Shown here: piece after piece, positions 4,322 to 51,227 of the stretch | Layout: every line of letters begins with the position of its first letter | Numbering within the stretch: the first letter of the stretch is position 1 | Assembly (NCBI GenBank): GCA_009841145.1 | Contig: VXMJ01000063.1 | Span: 1-64,000, forward strand | Direction of reading: 5' to 3' | Source of the DNA: Caldilineaceae bacterium SB0661_bin_34 | GTDB taxonomy: Bacteria > Chloroflexota > Anaerolineae > Caldilineales > Caldilineaceae | DNA length: 64,000 nt | Notes under the pieces: generated by a model | Databases searched by the model: none | What the model was told of the DNA's origin: nothing | What the model saw: only the letters and a program-made list of their open reading frames with translations | Translations under genes and position numbers: made by a program

Positions 4322-5950
4322 TCAGCCGGAATTGAAGATGCTTTCCATGAAGGCGTGGACATCCGGTGCCCTTTGCAGCAACGCAAACCTGCCCCAGCTC
4401 CCGGGCATGCCGAAATCCGACAACCTCCAGGTGGCGTTGAAGTACAGCGTGGTGAAGACGGCAAAAAACTCCTCGACGTTCAACATCGCATAGGTGCCCT
4501 CAAAGCGCCCCAGCCGCCGGGCCCGCTCGTAGAGGGCCTCGATTTGCACGTGATCGGCCGGAGTGAAGCAGAGGTTTTGAATGAGGTGCGCGAACTCGTG
4601 GATCGTCACGTCCGACCATGCGCCGGTGTCGCTCGACAGGGCGAGCAGATTGTCCTCCGGGATGCCGGACACGGGCTGGCCCGGAATCCCGCCAAGGCCG
4701 AGGTACGTATCGTACGGGTCCCCGACCTCATCGGGCTGCCCCTTCAAATACGCAAATTCCGGCAAGTCGGTCACGTAGCCGTCGCCGGGGTAGATCGCCA
4801 ACTCCGCACCCGCCTCCGCCAGACAGTCGGGAATGCCGGGTCGCACATTGGCCAGCATCTGTTCCACCCGGTCGCCCGCGGCGTGCAGGGCCCGCGGGTC
4901 GACCTGGGCGGGTGCTTTGATCCACACGTCCCCGCGTTGCAGGAACTGCGCGTAGTAGGACGGCACCGCAACCACGCTCAGGCTGTTGAGCAACGACCGC
5001 CCAATGCTGTCGGCCTCTTCGCTTGCGCATATGCGATGCTGCGCGCGGAAGGCGCGGGCCGGCCCGACCTGCGAACCGCCCACCATGATCACCTCCTCGA
5101 CATCGAGCAGGCACGCACCGGGGCTTTCCCGCACGCGGTATTTGAGAACGTACCGTGCCCGGCCGACCGCGTCCCGCTTCTCGAACGATTCGACCTCGAA
5201 CACCAGCGCATGCGGCCAGTCCGCGCGCAGATTGGCCCGTATCGTTGCTGCCAGACTGTCGAGCGAGGCGCCGTCCGGATGGGAGTGCGAACGAAGTCGC
5301 AGGCTGCCGTCGCCCACCCACTCCGAATCGGCGACGTACGACCACTCCCGTGTCCAGCCGGCGGGAATGTCGACCGCGAACGCGTAGTCGTGGTTCCGGA
5401 TTACGATGCCGGTGTCGATGATCGTCGCCTGCCGTGGCGGGCCCGCGGTCTTGGCGAGCGCATCCATGATCGACCGCACGGCGTCTGCGAGGGTGGGTGT
5501 GGCGCGGGCAATGGGTGTGGGCGAGCGCACAGGACGTGCCGTCGCCGTTGGCAGCGGCACCGACGGATCGATTGAATCCAGGTACGCCTGCCAGCCCCCC
5601 ACGTGGCGCGACATGATCCAACCGACTTCCCCGGTCTCGGTCTTCAGCTTCAGAAGCGTCCATCCGGCACCGCCTCCCGACCTCCCCGTCACGCAGACCT
5701 GAAGCCCGGGTTCAAGTTCCCGGCTGGAGTAGTTGAACGTCGCCGGTATCGAGCCTTGCAACACATACTGAAGCTCGCCTTCACACTCCATCCGCGGGGC
5801 CGGTGGCGTCGCCTTGGTCGCCACCACGGTCGACCGTGTGAATCCAAGGCCCAGACCGCAGGCGACGACTGCGATCAGGATCCCGCTGACAAGGTACCTA
5901 ATACAACTGCGACGAGACTTCGACACTGTGGGACCATCCGTGGAAAGCAT
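4322..5950 (-). CDS. Secreted or membrane-anchored putative zinc metallopeptidase with an SH3-like N-terminal region
   Basis: N-terminal hydrophobic segment, SH3b-like LQVCVTGRSGGGAGWTLLKLKTETGEVGWI, HExxH motif in VTIHEFAHLIQN with downstream NVEEFFAVF. Confidence 0.6.
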   Translation of the reverse strand: MLSTDGPTVSKSRRSCIRYLVSGILIAVVACGLGLGFTRSTVVATKATPPAPRMECEGELQYVLQGSIPATFNYSSRELEPGLQVCVTGRSGGGAGWTLLKLKTETGEVGWIMSRHVGGWQAYLDSIDPSVPLPTATARPVRSPTPIARATPTLADAVRSIMDALAKTAGPPRQATIIDTGIVIRNHDYAFAVDIPAGWTREWSYVADSEWVGDGSLRLRSHSHPDGASLDSLAATIRANLRADWPHALVFEVESFEKRDAVGRARYVLKYRVRESPGACLLDVEEVIMVGGSQVGPARAFRAQHRICASEEADSIGRSLLNSLSVVAVPSYYAQFLQRGDVWIKAPAQVDPRALHAAGDRVEQMLANVRPGIPDCLAEAGAELAIYPGDGYVTDLPEFAYLKGQPDEVGDPYDTYLGLGGIPGQPVSGIPEDNLLALSSDTGAWSDVTIHEFAHLIQNLCFTPADHVQIEALYERARRLGRFEGTYAMLNVEEFFAVFTTLYFNATWRLSDFGMPGSWGRFALLQRAPDVHAFMESIFNSG

Positions 5951-31783: not shown

Positions 31784-33253
31784 CTACTTCAACACCGTGA
31801 ACTCGGTGGTGGTGAGGCCGTCAATTCCCGCAGCCGTCATCTTGTAGTCCGTGACAGTGACAGTACCACTGCGCTCGGTGTCCTTGGGCCGCACCTTCAG
31901 TGTGGCCACCGGACTGATGACCTCGTCGTCTTCGTTGATCGCCCAAGCCGTGATCGTATAGGTCGTGTCACTTGTGAACGTGTCGATGGGGAAGTCCCGA
32001 TGCTCGTTCGGTGCTTCCGCAAACACGGTGCCGTCAATATCAGCCGCCGTAGTAGTTAGAGCGTAAGAGGCGTCGTTGCCGTTGTCATCTGCGTCAGGGG
32101 CACTAGTGTCGGGGACAGCGGGGGTGATAGTGCCAGTGTTAGCGAGATCAAAGGAGTCAACCTTGACCATGGAGAGATAGCCCGGTACCAGTCCTCCATT
32201 CCGGTTAATCACCGCACTGCTGACGTGCGCCGCCACCGTGATGTCATCACCGTCCACGATCCGAACGTTGCTCAGAGCGTAGTCGTTTATCGTGCGCTCC
32301 TCAGGTTTGTCCGATGTCGCGAACGTTGGATCCTGGGTCACGCCATACAGGAACAGTGCCACCGGCGTCTTGAGTGAGAACGCGTCGGTCGTGTCTACCC
32401 CATCGTGGTTGAGTTCGACGGCATCCCTGTCGCTCTTGTAGCTGCTCGCCACCGTGGCCACGTCGTCACCTTCACTCACCACATCGCCGTCTTCGTCCTC
32501 GATGCGGATGATGTAGGCGTCGAATTCCACGTCCTCCCGCTCGACATCGGTCTCGTTGCTGGAGTGCGCCAGGCCAATCCTCAGCCGCGCGGTTGACGGG
32601 GTCGTCACCATATCGGAGTCATCCGACTTGTAGTTGCCGAAGTTCTCGTTGTAGCCGACGTAGTACAGCATGCCGGCCACTGCTTGGGAATTGACTTTGA
32701 GGTCCCCGGCCTTGCCTGTCCTCGTGGGAAGTGTCACCCCGGTCACCTGGCGCCATGCGGTTGAGAAGGCCGGCTCGGTCAGGCTCTGGTTAATGCGCTT
32801 CTCCAGAATGTCGCTGATCAGGTACTTGCCATCCGCGGTATCGACCACGATCGCCATCTGAACCGTCACCACTCTGCCGGTGTCAACGTTATCAAAGGTG
32901 ACCTTCGTCGTACCCAGCGACTCGGACTCGGTATGGGAGATGCCGTCGTCCAGAATCACTACGAGGGACGTGCGAAATTTGTTGGGCCCCAAACCCCAGG
33001 TTTCGGGATCGGTGGTCGCCCACGAAACGTTGACCTCATCCTCTTCATCAGAGTCGCGGTTCACGGACAAGTCTGAAATCTGACCATCCCGCAAACGGGT
33101 CTTATGGGGGCAGTCCTTGTAGTCGTTGTCGAACAGGTCGCCAGCCGCCAAGCTGCCGCCACTGATCACGGCCAACGCCAGAAGCGCCAGGAAAAGCCTG
33201 GCCAAGCACTTGCCGGGTGCGGAACTCAGAAACTGGGGAAAGGAGTGAGCCAT
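31784..33253 (-). CDS. Secreted acidic protein with FnIII/Ig-like segments
   Basis: Signal peptide LARLFLALLALAVISGGSLAAG; repeated beta-sandwich-like stretches (VNVSWATTDPETWGLG..., TYTITAWAINEDDEVISPVATLKV). RBS aggagg. Confidence 0.7.
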   Translation of the reverse strand: MAHSFPQFLSSAPGKCLARLFLALLALAVISGGSLAAGDLFDNDYKDCPHKTRLRDGQISDLSVNRDSDEEDEVNVSWATTDPETWGLGPNKFRTSLVVILDDGISHTESESLGTTKVTFDNVDTGRVVTVQMAIVVDTADGKYLISDILEKRINQSLTEPAFSTAWRQVTGVTLPTRTGKAGDLKVNSQAVAGMLYYVGYNENFGNYKSDDSDMVTTPSTARLRIGLAHSSNETDVEREDVEFDAYIIRIEDEDGDVVSEGDDVATVASSYKSDRDAVELNHDGVDTTDAFSLKTPVALFLYGVTQDPTFATSDKPEERTINDYALSNVRIVDGDDITVAAHVSSAVINRNGGLVPGYLSMVKVDSFDLANTGTITPAVPDTSAPDADDNGNDASYALTTTAADIDGTVFAEAPNEHRDFPIDTFTSDTTYTITAWAINEDDEVISPVATLKVRPKDTERSGTVTVTDYKMTAAGIDGLTTTEFTVLK

Positions 33254-33342: not shown

Positions 33343-33399
33343 AGGATAGCAGAAGTCTACGTGAATACCAAGTGATGATTTAGTGATCAAGTAGGTGAT
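33343..33399 (-). promoter_or_regulatory. Four GTGA repeats (TCAC on the minus strand) spaced 11/11/12 bp, followed by extended -10 TGCTATCCT
   Basis: GTGA at 33361, 33372, 33383, 33395 on + strand; AGGATA (TATCCT on -) at 33343-33348. Confidence 0.6.
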
Positions 33400-33939
33400 T
33401 GAAATTACCAATGGGATCCGGAACGGTGGCAAGGTACGGAGAATGGGTGCAGCGGCGTGCAAAGGGGGCCAAGCGACAGGATGCGGGTCGTTACCCCTTT
33501 CACTGCCTGTGACGCACCATTCACGGATACATGTCACGCCTCAGGACGCTACGACCGATGGGCCGTCCCGTCCACGGTTCTGTGGACGGGAGCCGACCTC
33601 GGGAGGCATCGGACCGCGACTGCCTTGCGGCACCACTACAGCAGCCCGGGCGCGTACCCCTTCCGGATCGCCTGCGGCCGCAGTACGGTTATGGGTGCTC
33701 CGTAACGGAGCACCGTCTGTGGAGTGCCATCCAGCACCGGGGTGGGTTCTTCATCCGCGAACAGTGCGTCGCGCAACTGTGCAAATGGTGGTGATGGGAA
33801 GTCAATCCGAGCGGTGATGGTATGGAACAACCCACAACTGATCGCTTGGACCTCTGCGCGCGCCACTGCATCGATTCCCACGCACATGGCAACTGGCACA
33901 ACCAGCATCGGTCGCACCTGAAGTCACTCTAACTTGTGC

Positions 33940-41570: not shown

Positions 41571-41802
41571 CGACAACAGGCCAGCCGGATGAGGCTTCCA
41601 AGTCAAGGGCCCTGCCGTTGAGTGGCAGGAATGCCTGTGCACCGATGTACCCATGGACAGGACACCCCGGCAACCAGGTGGGAGACCGTGAGAGACCGGT
41701 ACACGGACCGGCGTTGTCTTGACACCATTGCGCAGGATTTTGTCACGTATGGAGTCCATATGATGGCTTCAGGGCAGCATATACGACTTTGCAACGATTG
41801 TC

Positions 41803-41843
41803 TTCACCTGTTGTTCACCTCAAATTCACATTCATGCTACAAT
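41803..41843 (+). promoter_or_regulatory. Three TTCAC direct repeats with exact 11-bp period plus extended -10 (TGCTACAAT)
   Basis: TTCACCTGTTG|TTCACCTCAAA|TTCACATTCAT starting at 41803, 41814, 41825; TACAAT at 41838-41843. Confidence 0.75.
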
Positions 41844-41961
41844 GATTATTGGATGCCCATCCGACCCGCCCCCACAGGGCAATCACAGGTTTCCACACTG
41901 GGGAGGAGGATTGTGGTGGTGCCCGCGTCGGCGTGAATCAGTACAACTGAGGAGACACATT

Positions 41962-43314
41962 GTGATCAAGGGAACTCGCTACTTGCTCAGGAGTGCCTCG
42001 CTGGCGCTCCTAGCCCTGACGTTGATGGTAGCCATGGCGTTGCCGTCCTCGGCGGCCGATGATAAGTGCAGCCCCAGCCAGATGTTGGATGAAGTTGAGA
42101 TCGTCAGTGTTGCGGCCAAGGAAGCTCCGGCTGTCTGGAGCGCCCAGGACTTGGTGAACTTCGACTATGACGGCGACATCGAGAACGGGCTCTTGGAAGT
42201 CAGCTTCAAGGACATTCCCACCGACTTCGACTTCGATGGCTACATCATTGAGGCTGTACCCGGCGACGATGACCCCGGCGACTCCAAAGCGTTGGGGGTG
42301 GCCGCCTACACAACTTCTTCGCTGATCGCACGACCCTCCGTTGTCGGTTCCACGGTTACGGAGATTCTGAACCTCGAGCCCGGCACGAAGTACTACGTGA
42401 CGGTCTATGCCATCAACCACAATACGGTGCAAATCAGCCCGAACCAGCGTGCACAAGACAGCAGTTCGGCCACGACGCTGCTGAGTGCTCCGTTCCTAGG
42501 GGCACTCGAGGTGGGGAGAGGGGCTGTTCATACTGAAGATACTGCTTCCACTTGGACCCTTGACGTTCCATTGACTGATTGTGCAACTCCAGCGGCCAAC
42601 TCTGCCTGCCAAACCGTCGATTGGTGGGATGTTGACTTGGAAGACAAGGATTATCAGGGCGCGCACTTTGCGTTCTACGATGCAGAGGACGAAGCGGGAC
42701 AGCACTACTTCCGCTGGCTGAACCCCGGCGACTACGGTCCCTTTGACCATGTCCTAGCCAAGAAGGATAACAAGCAGGCCGACATGTTATCCCTTGACAA
42801 GGACGGCGACGTGGAAAACCACTGCGATGCTGATGATATCGGCGGCGACTGCGGTCATACCCACTACCAGTTCAAGGCCGTGGACGACAACGGCAACACC
42901 GTGGCCAGCGAACTGGTGGAGACCGACGGCAAGTTCACGATGAATTCTGGTACCGGTAGGGGTTACTTCCAGACGGTGTTTACCGCCGAGAATGGCGATC
43001 TGACCCTGTCCGTCTCACTGGGACGCATGGTCGGCGGCAAGTACAAGGCCATGAGCGACACCGCGTCCGTGATGTTCGAGGCTCCGGGTGATCTGAGGGC
43101 TCTTGACCAGACATATAACGAGTACGCGCGGGTCAACGCGGATATCGCCAAGGACGTGAACGAGGTAGATGACATCGAAAGGTATCTCGATTCGGTCTTT
43201 GCTGAACTCACAAGCATCGATGAGCAGGCCGAGCGTTTCAAGAACGACAAGCAGGTAGATGGTGCACCAGCCAACAACAAGATGGTGGCCTATCTCAACA
43301 ACCAGTTGAAGTAA
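41962..43314 (+). CDS. Secreted acidic protein with FnIII-like segment
   Basis: GTG start in frame; signal peptide IKGTRYLLRSASLALLALTLMVAMALPSSAA; FnIII-like VTEILNLEPGTKYYVTVYAINHNT. Confidence 0.72.
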   Translation: MIKGTRYLLRSASLALLALTLMVAMALPSSAADDKCSPSQMLDEVEIVSVAAKEAPAVWSAQDLVNFDYDGDIENGLLEVSFKDIPTDFDFDGYIIEAVPGDDDPGDSKALGVAAYTTSSLIARPSVVGSTVTEILNLEPGTKYYVTVYAINHNTVQISPNQRAQDSSSATTLLSAPFLGALEVGRGAVHTEDTASTWTLDVPLTDCATPAANSACQTVDWWDVDLEDKDYQGAHFAFYDAEDEAGQHYFRWLNPGDYGPFDHVLAKKDNKQADMLSLDKDGDVENHCDADDIGGDCGHTHYQFKAVDDNGNTVASELVETDGKFTMNSGTGRGYFQTVFTAENGDLTLSVSLGRMVGGKYKAMSDTASVMFEAPGDLRALDQTYNEYARVNADIAKDVNEVDDIERYLDSVFAELTSIDEQAERFKNDKQVDGAPANNKMVAYLNNQLK

Positions 43315-43344
43315 ACCCCAAAAACTGACTAGGAGACCAACATA

Positions 43345-43449
43345 ATGCGCACTTGGACAAAGCCCGTATTGGTGAAGCTGGACATCGCTGAGACCCTCAG
43401 GGGTCAAGGCCCCTGTCCCGATGGCGACGGTGGCTCGGAAGCCATGTAG
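43345..43449 (+). CDS. 34-aa RiPP/lasso-precursor-like peptide (not in supplied ORF track)
   Basis: MRTWTKPVLVKLDIAETLRGQGPCPDGDGGSEAM*; RBS AGGAGA at 43331; terminator 43 bp after the stop. Confidence 0.6.
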   Translation: MRTWTKPVLVKLDIAETLRGQGPCPDGDGGSEAM

Positions 43450-43492
43450 CCATTCCAAACTTCGAGCCGAATGCCTCCCATGGCTCGGTTGG

Positions 43493-43524
43493 ACAGCCTC
43501 GGCGAAAGCCGGGGCTGTTTCTTT
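43493..43524 (+). terminator. Rho-independent terminator of the 41962-43449 unit
   Basis: ACAGCCTCGGC-GAAA-GCCGGGGCTGT followed by TTCTTT. Confidence 0.88.
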
Positions 43525-45439
43525 ATGCTCCAAGGTGAAGCGATGTCGCTGTCCCGGTAGCCCATCGCAATACCCTATGAAGGAACCACAGAACAGTGAG
43601 GTTCAACGGTAGGCGGTTTGGTGGACTGCAGAACCTGGATCGCACGCAGGACGACCAAGTGAATGGATTGAATGCGGGACGGATGAAGGGCGGGTCCGTG
43701 TCGTTTACCGGAACCGAGTTGCCCTCAACACGGAACAGGTGGTCCAGCAACATCGCGGATCGAAGGTGCCTGTTGGCCCATTGAGCCACCAATTCGGACG
43801 CGGACCGACGATCCCAAACCTCGTCCCGATGGGCTGACAGTCGGATTGGTGCACCTGTACCCCACAATCTTCAGTCCATGGGGCCGAACCTCCGACAAAT
43901 CGGAGTCCCCTCCTGCGCCGCTCTCCCGCCTTCGCGTCCATACCGATAGTGGGCCTGGTCACTGCGTTGTGGCCCCGACACATACGGACAGGCTATGCCT
44001 GTCCCCCTCCTCCCAACCTTCAAGGGACGCAAGCAGCACGGGATGATCAGGCAGCCGACCTGGCACTCTTGCCTCGGACATTAACCGATACCGCCGTTCA
44101 AGTTGGTCCAAGCGGAATGCGGCCGGCATGAGCCACTGGAACAGTTCCAGGGACTGGACCCACTTGGACAGGTGGCTCAAGCGGATGTCCCGCCGAACCT
44201 TGAACGGCCACACGCGTTCCCTGAAATACACCGTCAGATCCGGCTCGGAACAGAGGCCCCACGGATCGTCCGCCCGTTCCGGACTGGACGGAGGCCGGTC
44301 GTCAACCGGAATGTCCAGGGACAACAGATGGCCCCGGCTTCCAGAATCGCAGCCGCATGGCGAACCGCCCCACGGTGCGACAGCACCCAAGGCAACTCCG
44401 ACTTTGCTGGCCCGGCATCGAACTGTTTCCGGTACCAATCCCTGCCGGCAGGCGTCAGAGGTTGTAAAGCGGCCGGCCTCTGCCCTGCTTGAAGTGCCGG
44501 CGCAACGGCACTGCACCCGACGATGCCGGCCTGATGTACCCCGCCTGCTCCAGCTTGCGCTACCGGCCCCGGAATGCATTGCCGGTCCAGGACATCCGGT
44601 CCGGCCCGTGGGTCCGGACCGGACACCAACTGCGGATGCATCCGGTTGCACCCATGAGCCAAGCAGACAAGAGGCCAGGGCACTGGGCAAGGGTCGAGTC
44701 GGGACGCAGGATCCGGTTCGGTGACAGTGTGTTGAATGCACGTGAACAAATATTCACCCAACAAACAGATCAGTATGCAACCGCATCCGGGGGTGACCCA
44801 TCCCCCAACCTTGATGGCATAAGTGGCAAGTACCTCGAACTCGCGGCAACAGCACTGTTTCGGTTTCGTTGATGTTGGTCCGAGTCCAGAGACAAGGGGG
44901 CCCTGTACTGTCTCGCCAAACCAAAGGATCCTTGTGGTGATCGCCAGTCAAACCCGGTCCGCCCGAGGTTTGCCCCCACTGTAGCCGCCACGTTTGGCAA
45001 TGCCACAGCTCCTTCGCGCGCTGGCGGGTCGTCCGGGAAGGTGTCAAGGTTCAGTGCTGGCTTTACCAGACCTGACAGCACACAAACTCCCGAACCCCTC
45101 CGGGCATGACCGCATCGGTCGCAGCGCACGCAGTCCTCCCAGTCGCCGGCGGTTCTGCTGCACGCGCTGTCGGTCAGCAACCAGGCTCTATCGGTGGTAC
45201 TGGTCGGTCTTGGACTGCGGGGGAAGCAAACGCCACCACCTAGCTCACGCTCGAGGACCGCAAGCGACCGGCAATGGACGTCACCGGCCGCCAACTGGAA
45301 GTCCGACTGATGAAGCCGGGCTCGGGCCAACATCAACAAAACTGGAACAGTGCCGGAAAGCACCATGCCACCCCATTTTCCTATCCTGCTGGGATGCTGA
45401 TTGAGATGCCCCGTGTAGACATTCCGCGCGGCCCGGCGG

Positions 45440-45640
45440 CCGTCATTGGCCACCGCAGACGTGCGGTGACCAATGACGGGCAGATCGATTCGGGGCCGGG
45501 GTCGCCGTGGACACGGGAGCCAAAGAGCAGTACGCGCGCCACTCCGGGCATCTGCGCTGCGGCGGCCACAACCTGCCGGGCACGCGGAACGTGGCGCAAA
45601 TCGCGGCCGGGTTTGGGCTCGACAATCCAAGTGGCCGGGA
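45440..45640 (-). pseudogene. Decayed nucleotidyltransferase (MNT) N-terminal fragment
   Basis: ARQVVAAAAQMPGVARVLLFGSRVHGDPGPES retains the GSR...GD motif; the ORF then loses similarity. Confidence 0.55.
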
Positions 45641-46050
45641 TCAGCGTCGACGGGGAGTGATTATCGCCGGAAGGCGGGCGCAGCTTCACGAACATGCCTT
45701 CACATACGGAGCGTGGCGGCGGTGCCGCAGGGTGTCGGCCGTGCCCCCGTCCGCCTACGACATCCGCGATGCCTGAATAACCGAGGGCTGCGCCTAGCCC
45801 GGACTTCCCTGCCTGCTTGGGCAAGGCGGTACCAGCCGACGCGTTGGGCAACAGGGCCGCCGCCCGCGAAGCATCCGGGAAGCGTCTCAAGCAGTCCGTG
45901 TCACAACGCGCCCGCAGTAACCAGTCCGAACGGCACCGCTGGATGCGGAAGCATGGGAAGGGCGGATGGTCCAGTGACCAACTGGCTCGGCACCAATGAA
46001 CAATGAAGTGTAGGGCCCGGCATCGGCGACCGCTTCCTGCGGTCAAGCCC

Positions 46051-48447
46051 TCACCCGTCCCGCTCTTCCTTGGCCGGCCCCAGCCGGTAACCTGCTCTGG
46101 GCTCGTTGAAGATGTACTTGGGATTGGCGGCACTCTCCCCCAGCTTCTGGCGCAGTCGCTTCACGTAGGCTCGCACCACGCTGAAATCGGCGGCCTCCCG
46201 CACCGACCAGACACGGCTCATCAAGTGCTCTCGGTTCAGCACCTGCCCTGCGTTCACTGCAAGCTCGCAGAGCAAACGATACTCCGTTGCGGTCAACTCC
46301 ACCACCCGGTCGCCCACCGTCACCCGGTGCCGGACGTAGTCGATGACCAGTTCCCCCAACCGGAAGGATTCCTGGTACAACTCCCTTTCCGGCGCCTCCC
46401 GGCGCCGCAGCGCAGCCCCCACCCGGGCCACCAACTCGGTGGGCGAGAAGGGCTTGGCGATGTAGTCGTCGGCTCCCGCCTCGAAGGCCAACGCAGGATC
46501 CTGCCCCTGCTCCGACAGCACCATCACCGGTGCATCGGTTACCTTCAACACGCGCTGCATCAGTTCCAACCCGTCGGTCCCGGACAGCGTCGAGGCCAGC
46601 AGCACCAGGTGGGGCCGCTCCACCTTAATGAGCCGCTCCATCTCCTCAGGGTCCCAGGTGACGATCAGGGTGTAGCCCGTTTCTGTCAGCGTATTGCGTA
46701 TGTGCCACAGCATCTGGGGGTCGTCGTCCACCACCAACACGCGTCCCTGCCCACGGACTGCTCGCCGCGCGCCGGCAGAAGACCGGCGCGACGCGGTCTC
46801 CTCGGCCACCGGCAGGGTGAAGAGAAACCGGGCCCCCAGGCCGGGCCCGTCGCTCTCGGCCCAGATGCGGCCTCCGTGGGCCTCCACGATACCCCGGCAC
46901 ACCGCCAGGCCCAAGGCGTCTCTTCCGGTCCCGTTCCGGTCGTCCCCCGCCTGCCGCCGGGAGGACCTGCGAAACAGCAGGGGCAAGGGCTGGAACGGTA
47001 TGCCCCGGCCCTGGTCGGTTATGCACACCGCCACGTGCGGATCCTCCTGGCGGGCGTTCACCGTGACCACGGATCCCTCCGCGGAGTAGTCGGAGGCGTT
47101 GGCCAGGAGGTGTTCCAGCACTTGGAGCACCCGCTGCCGGTCTGCCATTACCCGGGGTAGCTCCAAGGGCAGGTCCACCTCCACCGGATTGTCGGCCCTG
47201 CCCCCCAGAAACGATACCTTGGCCTGGCTCACCAGGGATGCCAGGTCCGTGGGTTCGGGGGTCAGGAACAGCATTCCCGCCTCGATGCGGGCTGCCTCCA
47301 GCAGATCCCAGATCAGGCCCCGCATCCGGTCAGCCTGCCACTCGATGATGCCGAAGAACTGGCGGGCTTTGGTTAGGTCCAGTCGAGCCAGGTCCTCCAG
47401 CACGGCGGCGGCGGAACCCTTGATGGAGGTCAGGGGCGTCAACAGTTCCTGGCTCACCGTGTCCAGGAACTCAGCTCGCTGTCGGCCCAACTCCTTCATG
47501 GGTGCCAAATCTTGCAGGGTGACCACCAGCGATGCCACACCGCCTTCCTCGGAGAGGATGGGCGTGGCGTTGATGAGGACGTTGACCCGGCGTCCGTCGG
47601 GGACCCTGAGGACGATCTCCTCGGCTCGTATCGTTTCTCCGGAGTTCAGCATCCGGATCAGCGGGTACGTCTTCAGGGAGATCTCCCGCCCGTCAGCCCG
47701 CTGGAAGGTCAACACCTCCAGCAACTGCTCCAGACTTTGGTCCGGGTCGCGCAGCCCGCCCACGATCCGCTGGGCCTCCCGGTTGCATGACAACAGTGTT
47801 CCCGTTCCGGTGTCGAAAATCGCCACGCCCACCAACGGGGTGTTGACCAGCGTCTCTAGGTCGGTCCGGGCCTGCTGCATCTCCCGGTATTGGCGGGAAT
47901 TGGCGACGGCCAAGGCCGCCTGGGAGGTGAAGAGCACCAGCACCCCCTCGTCCTCCGAGGTGAACGCAGCCTCCCCCTCCTTGCCTGCCAGGTAGAGGCT
48001 TCCCACCCGGTGTCCCAAGTGCCGGATGGGGGCTCCCAGGAAGGCTGCCATCGGCCCCAGGGGTGGACCGATAGCGGGCAGACCCACGGCCCGCGCGTAG
48101 GCGGAGAAGTCCGTAACCCGCAACGGTTCCGGCAGACCGCCCATGTGCTCGAAGAACTCCAACCCGCCGGGCAGGGCCACCACCAACTGGTGCTCCTCCG
48201 GGGTCAGGCCGGAGGTGATGATGTGCTGCAACTGCCCGCTGTCGTCCAGGATGATGATGCCGCCGTGACGAGCTCCGGTCAGGGAACAAACTTCGTCCAC
48301 CACGCTCTGCAGCATGGTGTCCAAGTCCAGGGTCTCGGTGATGCGGATGTTGTTCTGGCTCATGCGGGCGAGGCGATTGCCGGCATGAGCTGGACTTTCG
48401 GGTTCCAGCTTCGCTGCTTGGTTCAGGGCACCCTCCGCCCGTAGCAC
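46051..48447 (-). CDS. GAF/PAS hybrid histidine kinase-response regulator with C-terminal OmpR/PhoB-type DNA-binding domain
   Basis: GAF (MLQSVVDEVCSLTGARHGGIIILDD), HATPase (ITDQGRGIPF...LGLAVCRGIVEAHGGRIWAES), REC-like (RVLVVDDDPQMLWHIRNTL), wHTH (VVELTATEYRLLCELAVNAGQVLNREHLMSRVW...). Confidence 0.9.
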   Translation of the reverse strand: MLRAEGALNQAAKLEPESPAHAGNRLARMSQNNIRITETLDLDTMLQSVVDEVCSLTGARHGGIIILDDSGQLQHIITSGLTPEEHQLVVALPGGLEFFEHMGGLPEPLRVTDFSAYARAVGLPAIGPPLGPMAAFLGAPIRHLGHRVGSLYLAGKEGEAAFTSEDEGVLVLFTSQAALAVANSRQYREMQQARTDLETLVNTPLVGVAIFDTGTGTLLSCNREAQRIVGGLRDPDQSLEQLLEVLTFQRADGREISLKTYPLIRMLNSGETIRAEEIVLRVPDGRRVNVLINATPILSEEGGVASLVVTLQDLAPMKELGRQRAEFLDTVSQELLTPLTSIKGSAAAVLEDLARLDLTKARQFFGIIEWQADRMRGLIWDLLEAARIEAGMLFLTPEPTDLASLVSQAKVSFLGGRADNPVEVDLPLELPRVMADRQRVLQVLEHLLANASDYSAEGSVVTVNARQEDPHVAVCITDQGRGIPFQPLPLLFRRSSRRQAGDDRNGTGRDALGLAVCRGIVEAHGGRIWAESDGPGLGARFLFTLPVAEETASRRSSAGARRAVRGQGRVLVVDDDPQMLWHIRNTLTETGYTLIVTWDPEEMERLIKVERPHLVLLASTLSGTDGLELMQRVLKVTDAPVMVLSEQGQDPALAFEAGADDYIAKPFSPTELVARVGAALRRREAPERELYQESFRLGELVIDYVRHRVTVGDRVVELTATEYRLLCELAVNAGQVLNREHLMSRVWSVREAADFSVVRAYVKRLRQKLGESAANPKYIFNEPRAGYRLGPAKEERDG

Positions 48448-48531
48448 TGACTCCGGGAGTCAGTATAGCACGGTAAATTGCCCCAGCGGGCTGCAAGCAA
48501 CCTATATTATCACTAAAATAATTACTCTTTT

Positions 48532-48550
48532 TTCACCTATAATTCACATA
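48532..48550 (+). promoter_or_regulatory. Two TTCAC direct repeats with 11-bp spacing in an AT-rich island
   Basis: TTCACCTATAA|TTCACATATAT at 48532 and 48543; shares TTCACCT-NN-AATTCACAT with 41814-41831. Confidence 0.55.
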
Positions 48551-48717
48551 TATTTGTATTGCAGTGCTTGTTGGTCTCTATTCGTAATTTTCCTCCTAAA
48601 TTCCATCAAAAGTGTTCCCTCGTAGCTGCCTGCGAAGGACAGTGTCCGAGTGAGCGTGTCACAGCATTAGGAACGCCGTGAAAACCGATCCGGATCGATC
48701 AAGCCCTTCCGATTCGC

Positions 48718-49215
48718 ATGTTAAGACGGACGATCCTCCTTCCGTTCCTGCTGACGCAGGTCGGCCTCATTCTCTCCGGCGACGGCGCGTGGGACTCGCA
48801 CACCCTGTCCGCTGTGCGCTTGCCTCCCGAACAGGGTGCGTGTGGAACGGGCCGGCAAAGACGACGAACTACAGATAATATGGGACACTCCCAATCCAGC
48901 GGCCTGGGGACTGAACGGCTACACGGCAACGATCACGGTCATCGTGGTTGCGAGGGAATGCGATCACCTCCTTGACCGCAGAGTTCCATGTCTTCTCCCA
49001 CATCTGCACTGTCAATTTCAACGACGAAGTCAGTTGCTAGGAAGCAACTTCACAGGTCTACGGAGGTCCTGTCACCACGATACCTGTGGGACTGAAGGAA
49101 TCCAATGTAACCATGGGCCTATACCACCTATGTGCACCGAAGCTGTGGGACTCGAAACCGGTTTGCCGGGGCAAGTCGGCGGACCCAATCCCAATTCCCC
49201 GCCGTGGTCAAGTTG
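48718..49215 (+). pseudogene. Decayed relative of the secreted acidic protein family
   Basis: MLRRTILLPFLLTQVGLILSG, then in another frame ERAGKDDELQIIWDTPNPAAWGLNGYTATITVIV, resembling DEEDEVNVSWATTDPETWGLGPNKFRTSLVVIL of 31784-33253. Confidence 0.55.
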
Positions 49216-50229
49216 AGCCGTATTTCCTGCCCGGGACCGCAGTCCCGGGGGACTGTTTGGGTTTCGTTGATGCGGGTTTGAGCTCGAGACCTCGGCTCCG
49301 CGCGCGAAGAAAGTCCCATCTGCTCGGCTTAGGCCTTGGTGACCGCGGTCCCCAAGGGGCTACTCGTCCAGGATGGCCAGCTCGACTACCACGGCCGGCG
49401 CTCTCTCCCTCCGTGCTCCCAAAGCGGTTGCCAAGGACCCGCAGGAACGGGATCACATCCCCGGTGTCAGCTGTTGTCCCTATGTGAACGATCATCCCCC
49501 GCGATGGCACACAACGCGTGAAGCAAGCCCCCAGCTGTTTGGAATCCAGCCGCGCGAAGACGCGCCCGAAGGTGTCTTGCAAGGGGGCCATGGTGCAGGT
49601 CCAGGAAGATCTCCGTCCGAACCTGCTTCTGGCGATCACACAGTTCCCCCTCGATCCCGCGGCCGGTGCCACAGATCACGGCTGGGCTCGCAATCAGGAG
49701 GATGCTTTCCAGCGAATGACACCAAGCCCGGAACCGACGGGGAACGTCCACCCCGACACTGTTTCATTCTCGTTGATGCTGCTCCGAAGCCCGGTGAGGA
49801 GAAAGGCCCCGCGTTATCGGGTTTCCCCCAAAAGAACCAACAAGGGACCTTTGCCGTGGACTTCATCCCGGCTCCCGGGTCCGGTGCGGCGTGCGATTGG
49901 TCGTTGCCGGTGAGAATGCCCGGGACCGGCGGTTGGATTGGCCGAAATCATCACTAATTCAATCACCCGAAGTTTACTCTATACTCACTGATAGTTTTGC
50001 TGGCATGACCACTGAACGCCGCCCAATTGGCCTCCGTATCCAGCCCGGAGACGCTTCTTGGCCAAGAGTGTGTAAGGAGATTTTGGCATGTCGACACAGA
50101 CCCGCGTCCTGGACGTGTGCGCCTCCCCCCTCCCCGAATTTTCGGGAAGGCAGGACCATGAGCCGGTGCCTGCGCTGGAGACTGCTATGCCTGCTGGTGT
50201 CGCTCGTGCTCGGTCTGGAGACCGCGGGG

Positions 50230-50688
50230 TGCGGGCCGACGAGCATCGCTTTGAGACGGACTGCATCCTCTGTCCGGCGCCTCAGGATCTGTGGGCGGCC
50301 CGACACCGCCGCAAGGACACCCGCCGCCAGCTGGGCGGCTGGACGAAGGGCGTGATTTCCGACACACTCAAGGCCATGTCCCTGCACAAAGGTTCTGCGC
50401 GGAGGTTGTCAATCCAGCCTGCACATCGCAAATCGCCCCGCGGACGGGCCTGCTTCAGGGCACGCGCCGGGGTAATCGGTTTTTGCTGTGTCGACGGAGT
50501 TGTGGGAGGCGCATGTCAACGCCGTCTGCAACATCCGGGACCGGTTGGACGACCCTGAGATTGAGTTGTACACGCCATGCCGTGAGGCCAAGACCTTGCT
50601 CTTGAAACGAACCAGGCCGCTGGTGGAGCCTGCTCCACCCGGACTCGAGCTGCAAGGTCACACACCCCTATCAAACGAGATCCAATGA
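50230..50688 (+). pseudogene. Decayed TnpB-like gene, C-terminal half
   Basis: WTKGVISDTLKAMSLHKGSARRL... then (other frame) ELWEAHVNAVCNIRDRLDDPEIELYTPCREAKTLLLKR. Confidence 0.6.
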
Positions 50689-50858
50689 CTCGCACTGGTG
50701 CTGAAGTATGCCAGTTAAAGAAACAGGAAGTTTGCCAATTGATGTAACAGTTTGCAGTCGCCTGCGTCTTATATGGAAGGGGTATTGAGTCGTCCGCGGT
50801 CGATTCACCGCCTTTGTCAGCTTCCCATACGTCACACTCCTACTTTGAGGCTGCAGTA

Positions 50859-51227
50859 ATGACCGAACTCATCAAGGTCTCCAAGACCTCCCGTCCGACG
50901 GCCGTGGCCGGAGCCATTGCCGGCGTGATGCGCAAGGGCGGGTATGCCGAAATCCAGGCCATCGGGGCCGGGGCCGTAAACCAGTCCGTCAAGGCCCTGG
51001 CCACGGCGCGCAACTACCTGAAGGAGGATGGCATCGATCTCGCGGCCGTACCCAGCTTCACGGAAGTCGAGATCGACGGTTCCATAAAGACGGCCGTACA
51101 CATGGCCATCTACAAGCAGTCCGACGTGCTGGACTCGGAACTGGACGAGGAGGATGAGGAAGAGGACATGGTCCATCCCGTGGTGAACAACGGGATCCAC
51201 AACGGCGAAACCCATCTGGCCCTTTAG
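50859..51227 (+). CDS. spoVS: SpoVS-family protein with acidic C-terminal tail
   Basis: MTELIKVSKTSRPTAVAGAIAGVMRKGGYAEIQAIGAGAVNQSVKALATARNYL...EVEIDGSIKTAVHMAIYK. Confidence 0.88.
   Translation: MTELIKVSKTSRPTAVAGAIAGVMRKGGYAEIQAIGAGAVNQSVKALATARNYLKEDGIDLAAVPSFTEVEIDGSIKTAVHMAIYKQSDVLDSELDEEDEEEDMVHPVVNNGIHNGETHLAL

Follow-up and report, generated by a model that had tools for sequence, protein, structure and literature searches.

A hybrid histidine kinase-response regulator with both phosphoacceptor residues replaced, and its predicted operator, in a Chloroflexota genome

Architecture and active sites of the regulator

The window analysed here is a 64,000-nt stretch of contig VXMJ01000063.1 from Caldilineaceae bacterium SB0661_bin_34. 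Its minus strand carries, at 46051–48447, an ORF that was assigned by Pfam and alignment as a hybrid GAF-PAS-HisKA-HATPase-REC-wHTH regulator, with Gln in place of the phospho-His and Ala in place of the phospho-Asp. Counted from GTG 48447, the protein has 798 aa, and all six domains scored above the Pfam curated cut-offs: GAF (residues 40–181), PAS (about 196–314), HisKA (323–391), HATPase_c (436–548), the receiver (Response_reg, 570–676) and an OmpR-type winged helix (Trans_reg_C, 714–789). Sensor and DNA-binding output are thus joined in a single chain, which is the architecture of a one-component regulator. The reading frame was full-length, with no stop or frameshift, and the GC content at the three codon positions was 0.70/0.45/0.84 (GC3 0.84). 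Translation may instead begin at CTG 48426, judging from the ortholog L001 (described below), which starts at a TTG behind a Shine-Dalgarno-like sequence.

The regions flanking the gene on both sides (43315–46050 and 48450–50800) were gene-poor and showed no coding GC3 signature. Divergent from the regulator gene, the plus strand carries what is probably the remnant of a related gene for a secreted protein (48755–49213; weak profile match, E 0.003). Further along, a SpoVS-domain protein (50814–51227; Pfam PF04232, E 2e-33) precedes a solute-binding protein of family 5. The GAF domain was also compared with that of DevS, at the position of the heme-ligand His. The regulator reads AIGPPLGP in this region of the alignment; the heme His appears to be absent, and heme sensing by a DevS-like GAF domain was unsupported.

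An initial sequence-only reading had proposed that both phosphoacceptors were lost. The two motifs on which it was based were found in this ORF, and in the family alignment Q333 falls in the phospho-His column of the H-box and A618 in the phospho-Asp column of the receiver. The conserved neighbouring columns align on both sides, and the phosphoacceptors were not displaced to other positions. By alignment, codon 333 (CAG) lies at 47449–47451 (48447 − 3 × 332) and codon 618 (GCC) at 46594–46596 (48447 − 3 × 617), both on the minus strand. With the window protein counted, 69 family proteins could be scored at both positions, and 60 of these carry the canonical His and Asp. The remaining nine combinations were Q/A (window), Q/D, R/S (three proteins), R/D (two), R/A and N/E; none of the 69 combined a His with a non-Asp receiver. 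Around the two substitutions, the window protein retains the acidic pair (VVDDDP), the Ser of VLSEQ and the Lys of AKPF in the receiver, together with the Glu and Thr of the H-box (QELLT). The Thr has been lost in the ortholog (QELLA).

The ATP-binding region, initially read as intact, is so only in part. The window protein retains G1 (DQGRGIP) and the N-box Asn, but the glycines of the G2 box and lid have been lost, the sequence reading GTGRDALGLAV where the family motif is GSGLGLAI (approximate region 46885–46938, minus strand, placed by alignment in a part of the structural model with low pLDDT). In the ortholog, the G2 box is likewise altered and G1 is damaged too (VADRGRDIP). The protein therefore lacks the phospho-His, the full N/G1/F/G2 set and the receiver phospho-Asp of a functional HisKA-class hybrid kinase. 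It has the characters of a pseudo-histidine kinase, namely HisKA/HATPase homology with the phospho-His lost and the protein kept under selection, as well as those of an atypical OmpR/PhoB regulator, in which a receiver without the active-site Asp is joined to an OmpR-type wHTH.

Relatives and the order of residue loss

Searches for the family covered 46 genomes from the order and 396 from the class. In the sister genus (g2) it has expanded to as many as eight copies in one genome, whereas it was sparse in the genus of the window (g1) and nearly absent from the rest of the sampled class. One clear ortholog, L001, was identified in SAR202 cluster bacterium bin127 with 67% identity. Its Gln is likewise encoded by CAG, and it retains the Asp (GAC) in surroundings that have drifted. 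Conservation between orthologs, which had been suggested as a check, therefore holds for H→Q, while D→A was seen in this genome only, which is a single MAG. There was no synteny between the window and the L001 locus beyond the regulator gene itself. Next to L001, at positions 2533–2800, the promoter and its operator are duplicated ahead of a truncated N-terminus that belongs to the same regulator family.

The genome of the window (98% complete) contains the regulator gene, the R/S protein L005 and a truncated REC-wHTH protein, L006, and no canonical full-length copy. L006 (G000:C53:36752-37456) is a stump that has lost the sensor-kinase part and keeps an intact Asp. It shares 88% identity with the C-terminal portion of the canonical L018 of a sister species and lies near a cluster of secreted-protein paralogs.

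Besides the window protein and L001, four lineages have lost the His, replaced by Arg or Asn, and three of them have also lost the Asp in at least one member. L005 (G000:C56:259-2040), L029 and L078, from three species of the genus, show His→Arg, Asp→Ser, DD→DA and Lys→Arg; they represent a second degenerate paralog, without a GAF domain. L071 and L042 both have His→Arg, with Asp→Ala in one and the Asp retained in the other, and L086 has His→Arg with the Asp retained. In L046 (G016:C111:32068-34365), His→Asn and Asp→Glu occur alongside intact ATP-site motifs, and the Glu might mimic the phosphorylated state. The family thus includes intermediates, in which the His is gone and the Asp kept, as well as fully canonical close relatives.

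Non-Asp receivers were tied to loss of the His (Fisher test, 7e-7, calculated on related sequences that are not independent). The simplest order suggested by these sequences is that the kinase His was lost first and the receiver Asp second, because L001 shares the Gln yet keeps the Asp. In a joint tree of all members, eight of the nine His-lost proteins grouped together with L046 apart, an arrangement for which the program warned of long-branch joining. When placed singly, the His-lost lineages fell at different spots with modest support. The number of independent His losses would accordingly be at least two, and possibly five.

Predicted operators and putative targets

Upstream of the regulator gene, four GTGA-type units lie 11–12 nt apart on the minus strand (48506–48550). 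These units, TATGTGAATTA TAGGTGAAAAA AGAGTAATTAT TTTAGTGATAA, have a spacing of 11/11/12 and were recognised as a putative own-promoter operator from the repeats and their conservation in L001, where a matching arrangement is present at 4884–4940, at about equal distance from the gene. Among 71 family upstream regions ranked against dinucleotide shuffles, those of the window and L001 came first and second, and none of 60 shuffles was as good. The self-similarity of the upstream regions of 70 members, calculated with no prior motif, reached its maximum of 15.99 when the lag was 11 nt; other lags gave 13.1–14.5, except for 15.03 at lag 12. This peak suggests that tandem 11-nt repeats are a feature of the family, which fits a wHTH of the OmpR/PhoB type. 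The operator survives between the two genomes although the flanking genes do not. At the level of sequence, the gene has the tandem direct-repeat operator of atypical OmpR/PhoB regulators and has it, as is often the case for these, in its own promoter. The own-promoter repeats overlap a possible -10 box (GATAAT). This box and those of the putative targets were assigned by eye; a Sigma-70 and terminator scan was uninformative.

Further sites were sought with patterns and matrices, using sampled stretches and pattern searches as the background. A pattern search of the whole genome returned eight matches at up to three mismatches compared to six for the reversed control pattern; with so loose a pattern, this count does not exceed chance. 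The best three were the own promoter, 41801–41829 of the window and C49:27987; the last of these lies inside a penicillin-binding-protein gene and was taken as chance. A scoring matrix added one site, 33358–33403. With a matrix built from just the two promoters of L001, the three window sites scored 31.5, 27.1 and 25.5. Apart from the preselected C49 match, the background, which comprised 389 kb from the own genome and from the same genus, reached at most 17.4. A mixed matrix found no site of at least 17 bits in 264 kb of own background, nor in the 113 kb that surround some 16 homologs, within the genus, of the gene at 31784–33253. The Poisson probability of three further sites in 64 kb was 0.0007–0.015, a rough guide that counted a weak fourth site (49947–49991, minus strand). 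That site scored 19.9 with the mixed matrix; the ortholog-only matrix gave it 13.2, a score within the background, and it is not claimed. It lies ahead of a broken ORF whose start, near 50160, resembles a signal peptide.

One putative target operator (41800–41832, minus strand; three units, spacing 11) precedes a plus-strand gene (41842–43314) for a secreted protein with a signal peptide and, by Pfam, a weak fibronectin type III match. The true start of this gene is probably near 41960. Read along the gene, TTCAC lies 8 nt upstream of TACAAT. The other (33358–33403, plus strand; four units, spacing 11/11/12) precedes a minus-strand gene (31784–33253) for a secreted 489-aa protein with a signal peptide and no Pfam match, and here TTCAC lies 12 nt upstream of TATCCT. 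The two L001 promoters have the same layout, TTCAC-11-TATAAT. No homology between the two putative targets was detectable.

The 31784–33253 protein belongs to a family of multicopy secreted proteins of about 425–530 aa in the genus of the window, with no Pfam match. Paralogs are present on contigs C53, C37, C41 and C77 of the same genome (G000), with four clustered on C53. The idea that this secreted family generally accompanies the regulator family was rejected: the secreted family was absent from the three g2 genomes tested, and the operator was absent at the eight own-genome paralogs. About 16 same-genus homologs lack the operator as well. The operator and the regulon are sequence predictions, and the regulon would be small and local.

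Interpretation and comparison with known systems

The gene probably encodes a retained transcription factor, derived from a hybrid histidine kinase that is now incapable of His-to-Asp phosphorelay. To assess selection, the window gene was compared with L001 by the Nei-Gojobori method. Overall dN/dS was 0.34 at a dS of about 0.6, near the top of the range for canonical pairs of the same family (0.06–0.35). By domain, the values were 0.21 for the wHTH, 0.23 for both HisKA and the receiver, 0.38 for the HATPase and 0.49 for GAF. These values indicate purifying selection on the DNA-binding domain and on the helices of the dimer interface. The HisKA helices have lost their His but remain under constraint, which would fit a role in dimerisation. 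Sensing could be fading, since dN/dS is highest in GAF. The reading frame appears free of visible decay, and the substitutions are not simply private to this genome: D→A is, whereas H→Q is common to L001.

An unlikely alternative is that this is a degenerating paralog, in which the phosphorelay died first and the remainder is drifting to a pseudogene, the frame and operator being leftovers. The gene-poor flanks with their relic would fit such a history, as would the high GAF value, the truncated duplicate in the L001 neighbourhood and an own genome that holds only the regulator, L005 and the truncated L006 with no canonical full-length copy. Drift is, however, difficult to reconcile with a dN/dS well below 1 in each domain at this divergence, an intact frame with strong codon-position GC, and an operator conserved between genomes whose flanking genes are not. 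Moreover, the wHTH of the other degenerate lineage (L005, L029 and L078) is 97–98% identical with a dN/dS of 0.06–0.11, making it the most constrained domain. The sequence-only reading had left a phosphorelay-independent sensor/transcription factor and a degenerate paralog side by side; the former is favoured by the purifying selection, by an operator conserved between genomes and by the putative targets nearby.

Structural modelling bears on a second alternative. The AlphaFold model (pLDDT 76, pTM 0.58) preserved the domain folds, while the placement of domains relative to each other is unreliable. The ATP lid (residues 496–508) was disordered, with low pLDDT. The HisKA-HATPase portion matched the DivL structure 4q20 (TM 0.87 to target, rmsd 2.4) and was also like HK853. 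The protein might then be a DivL-like pseudokinase that acts via a partner kinase or response regulator through its HisKA/HATPase or REC domains, with its own DNA binding secondary. In addition to the DivL match, the remaining Glu and Thr of QELLT leave room for phosphatase action on a partner, and the genome encodes L006 with its intact Asp. This alternative is rather improbable, as the 98%-complete genome has no canonical family partner kinase, L001 has lost the Thr and has a broken G1, which makes a conserved catalytic role unlikely, and the operator evidence favours direct action on DNA.

That one or both codons are artefacts of sequencing or assembly that hide a canonical protein is very hard to credit: the genome is a MAG, either change is one base from the canonical codon and Ala618 occurs only here, but the Gln is common to the independent genome of L001, the G2 box is altered in both proteins, the residues around 618 have drifted as well (ASTLSG compared to DLMLPG) and the same positions have been lost in other lineages.

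The data are best read as describing a transcription factor that would dimerise by itself, act without a phosphorelay and control a small set of genes nearby. The HisKA helices would keep the regulator a permanent dimer, and the paired winged helices would bind the tandem repeats without phosphorylation. Judged by promoter geometry only, the regulator probably activates the two secreted-protein genes, because a -10-like box follows 8–12 nt after the last repeat, the geometry of promoters activated in the manner of PhoB. By the same type of evidence, it probably represses its own gene, since there the repeats overlap the possible -10. GAF and PAS may tune the activity by conformation, making the protein a one-component sensor; alternatively, it could be active at all times, with an output that depends on how much of it is made. 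Counting against this reading, receiver Asp→Ala changes usually weaken OmpR/PhoB regulators in laboratory mutants.

A broader proposal can be put forward only tentatively: that in one Chloroflexota family phosphorelay proteins may repeatedly have become phosphorylation-free one-component regulators, losing the His before the Asp and keeping a DNA operator and a small secreted-protein regulon. The window gene would be the case in which the dead switch and the live operator are seen together.

DivL acts on CckA/DivK and has neither a fused receiver nor a DNA-binding output, whereas the output of the regulator is its fused receiver and winged helix. The likeness to DivL, a pseudo-histidine kinase of Caulobacter (PMC4211667; PDB 4q20), lies in a HisKA-HATPase fold with the phospho-His replaced, on which the regulator model superposes well. 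A further pseudo-histidine kinase, ChrS, was evolved in the laboratory (PMC9491836). Phosphorylation-free OmpR-type regulators are represented by ChxR (PMC3960148) and HP1043 (PMC8345958), in which, as here, a receiver without the phospho-Asp is joined to an OmpR-type wHTH. Without phosphorylation, ChxR recognises direct repeats as well as several sites within its own promoter (PMC3960148). Unlike these stand-alone response regulators, the window regulator still shares its chain with sensor domains and a dead kinase. In this it resembles hybrid kinases with a DNA-binding output, where sensor, kinase, receiver and DNA-binding domain share one polypeptide; its canonical paralogs in the bacterial family are such proteins, but the window regulator has lost both phosphoacceptors.

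Pseudo-histidine kinases and phosphorylation-free OmpR-type regulators are each already known, and here a pseudo-kinase and a pseudo-receiver are found in one chain. In a limited literature search, no report was found of one chain with both phosphoacceptors lost and a conserved operator, and nothing was found on SAR202 regulators of this kind. The predicted operators can be compared to the Pho box of PhoB, which consists of two 11-bp direct repeats (PMC2648988). Both are tandem direct repeats with 11-nt spacing just upstream of the -10, and the predicted operators differ in having a GTGA/TTCAC-type repeat, three or four units and one 12-nt step. According to a 2025 review of pseudo-receivers, the phospho-His is missing in 0.9% of HisKA domains and the phospho-Asp in 2.0% of receivers, and the switching of pseudo-receivers is named as an open question (PMC12632262). 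In this single family, the His is missing in 9 of 70 members and the Asp in 6 of 70. With its predicted operator and targets, the family would make both the path from two-component to phosphorylation-free regulation and the switching testable on one small system.
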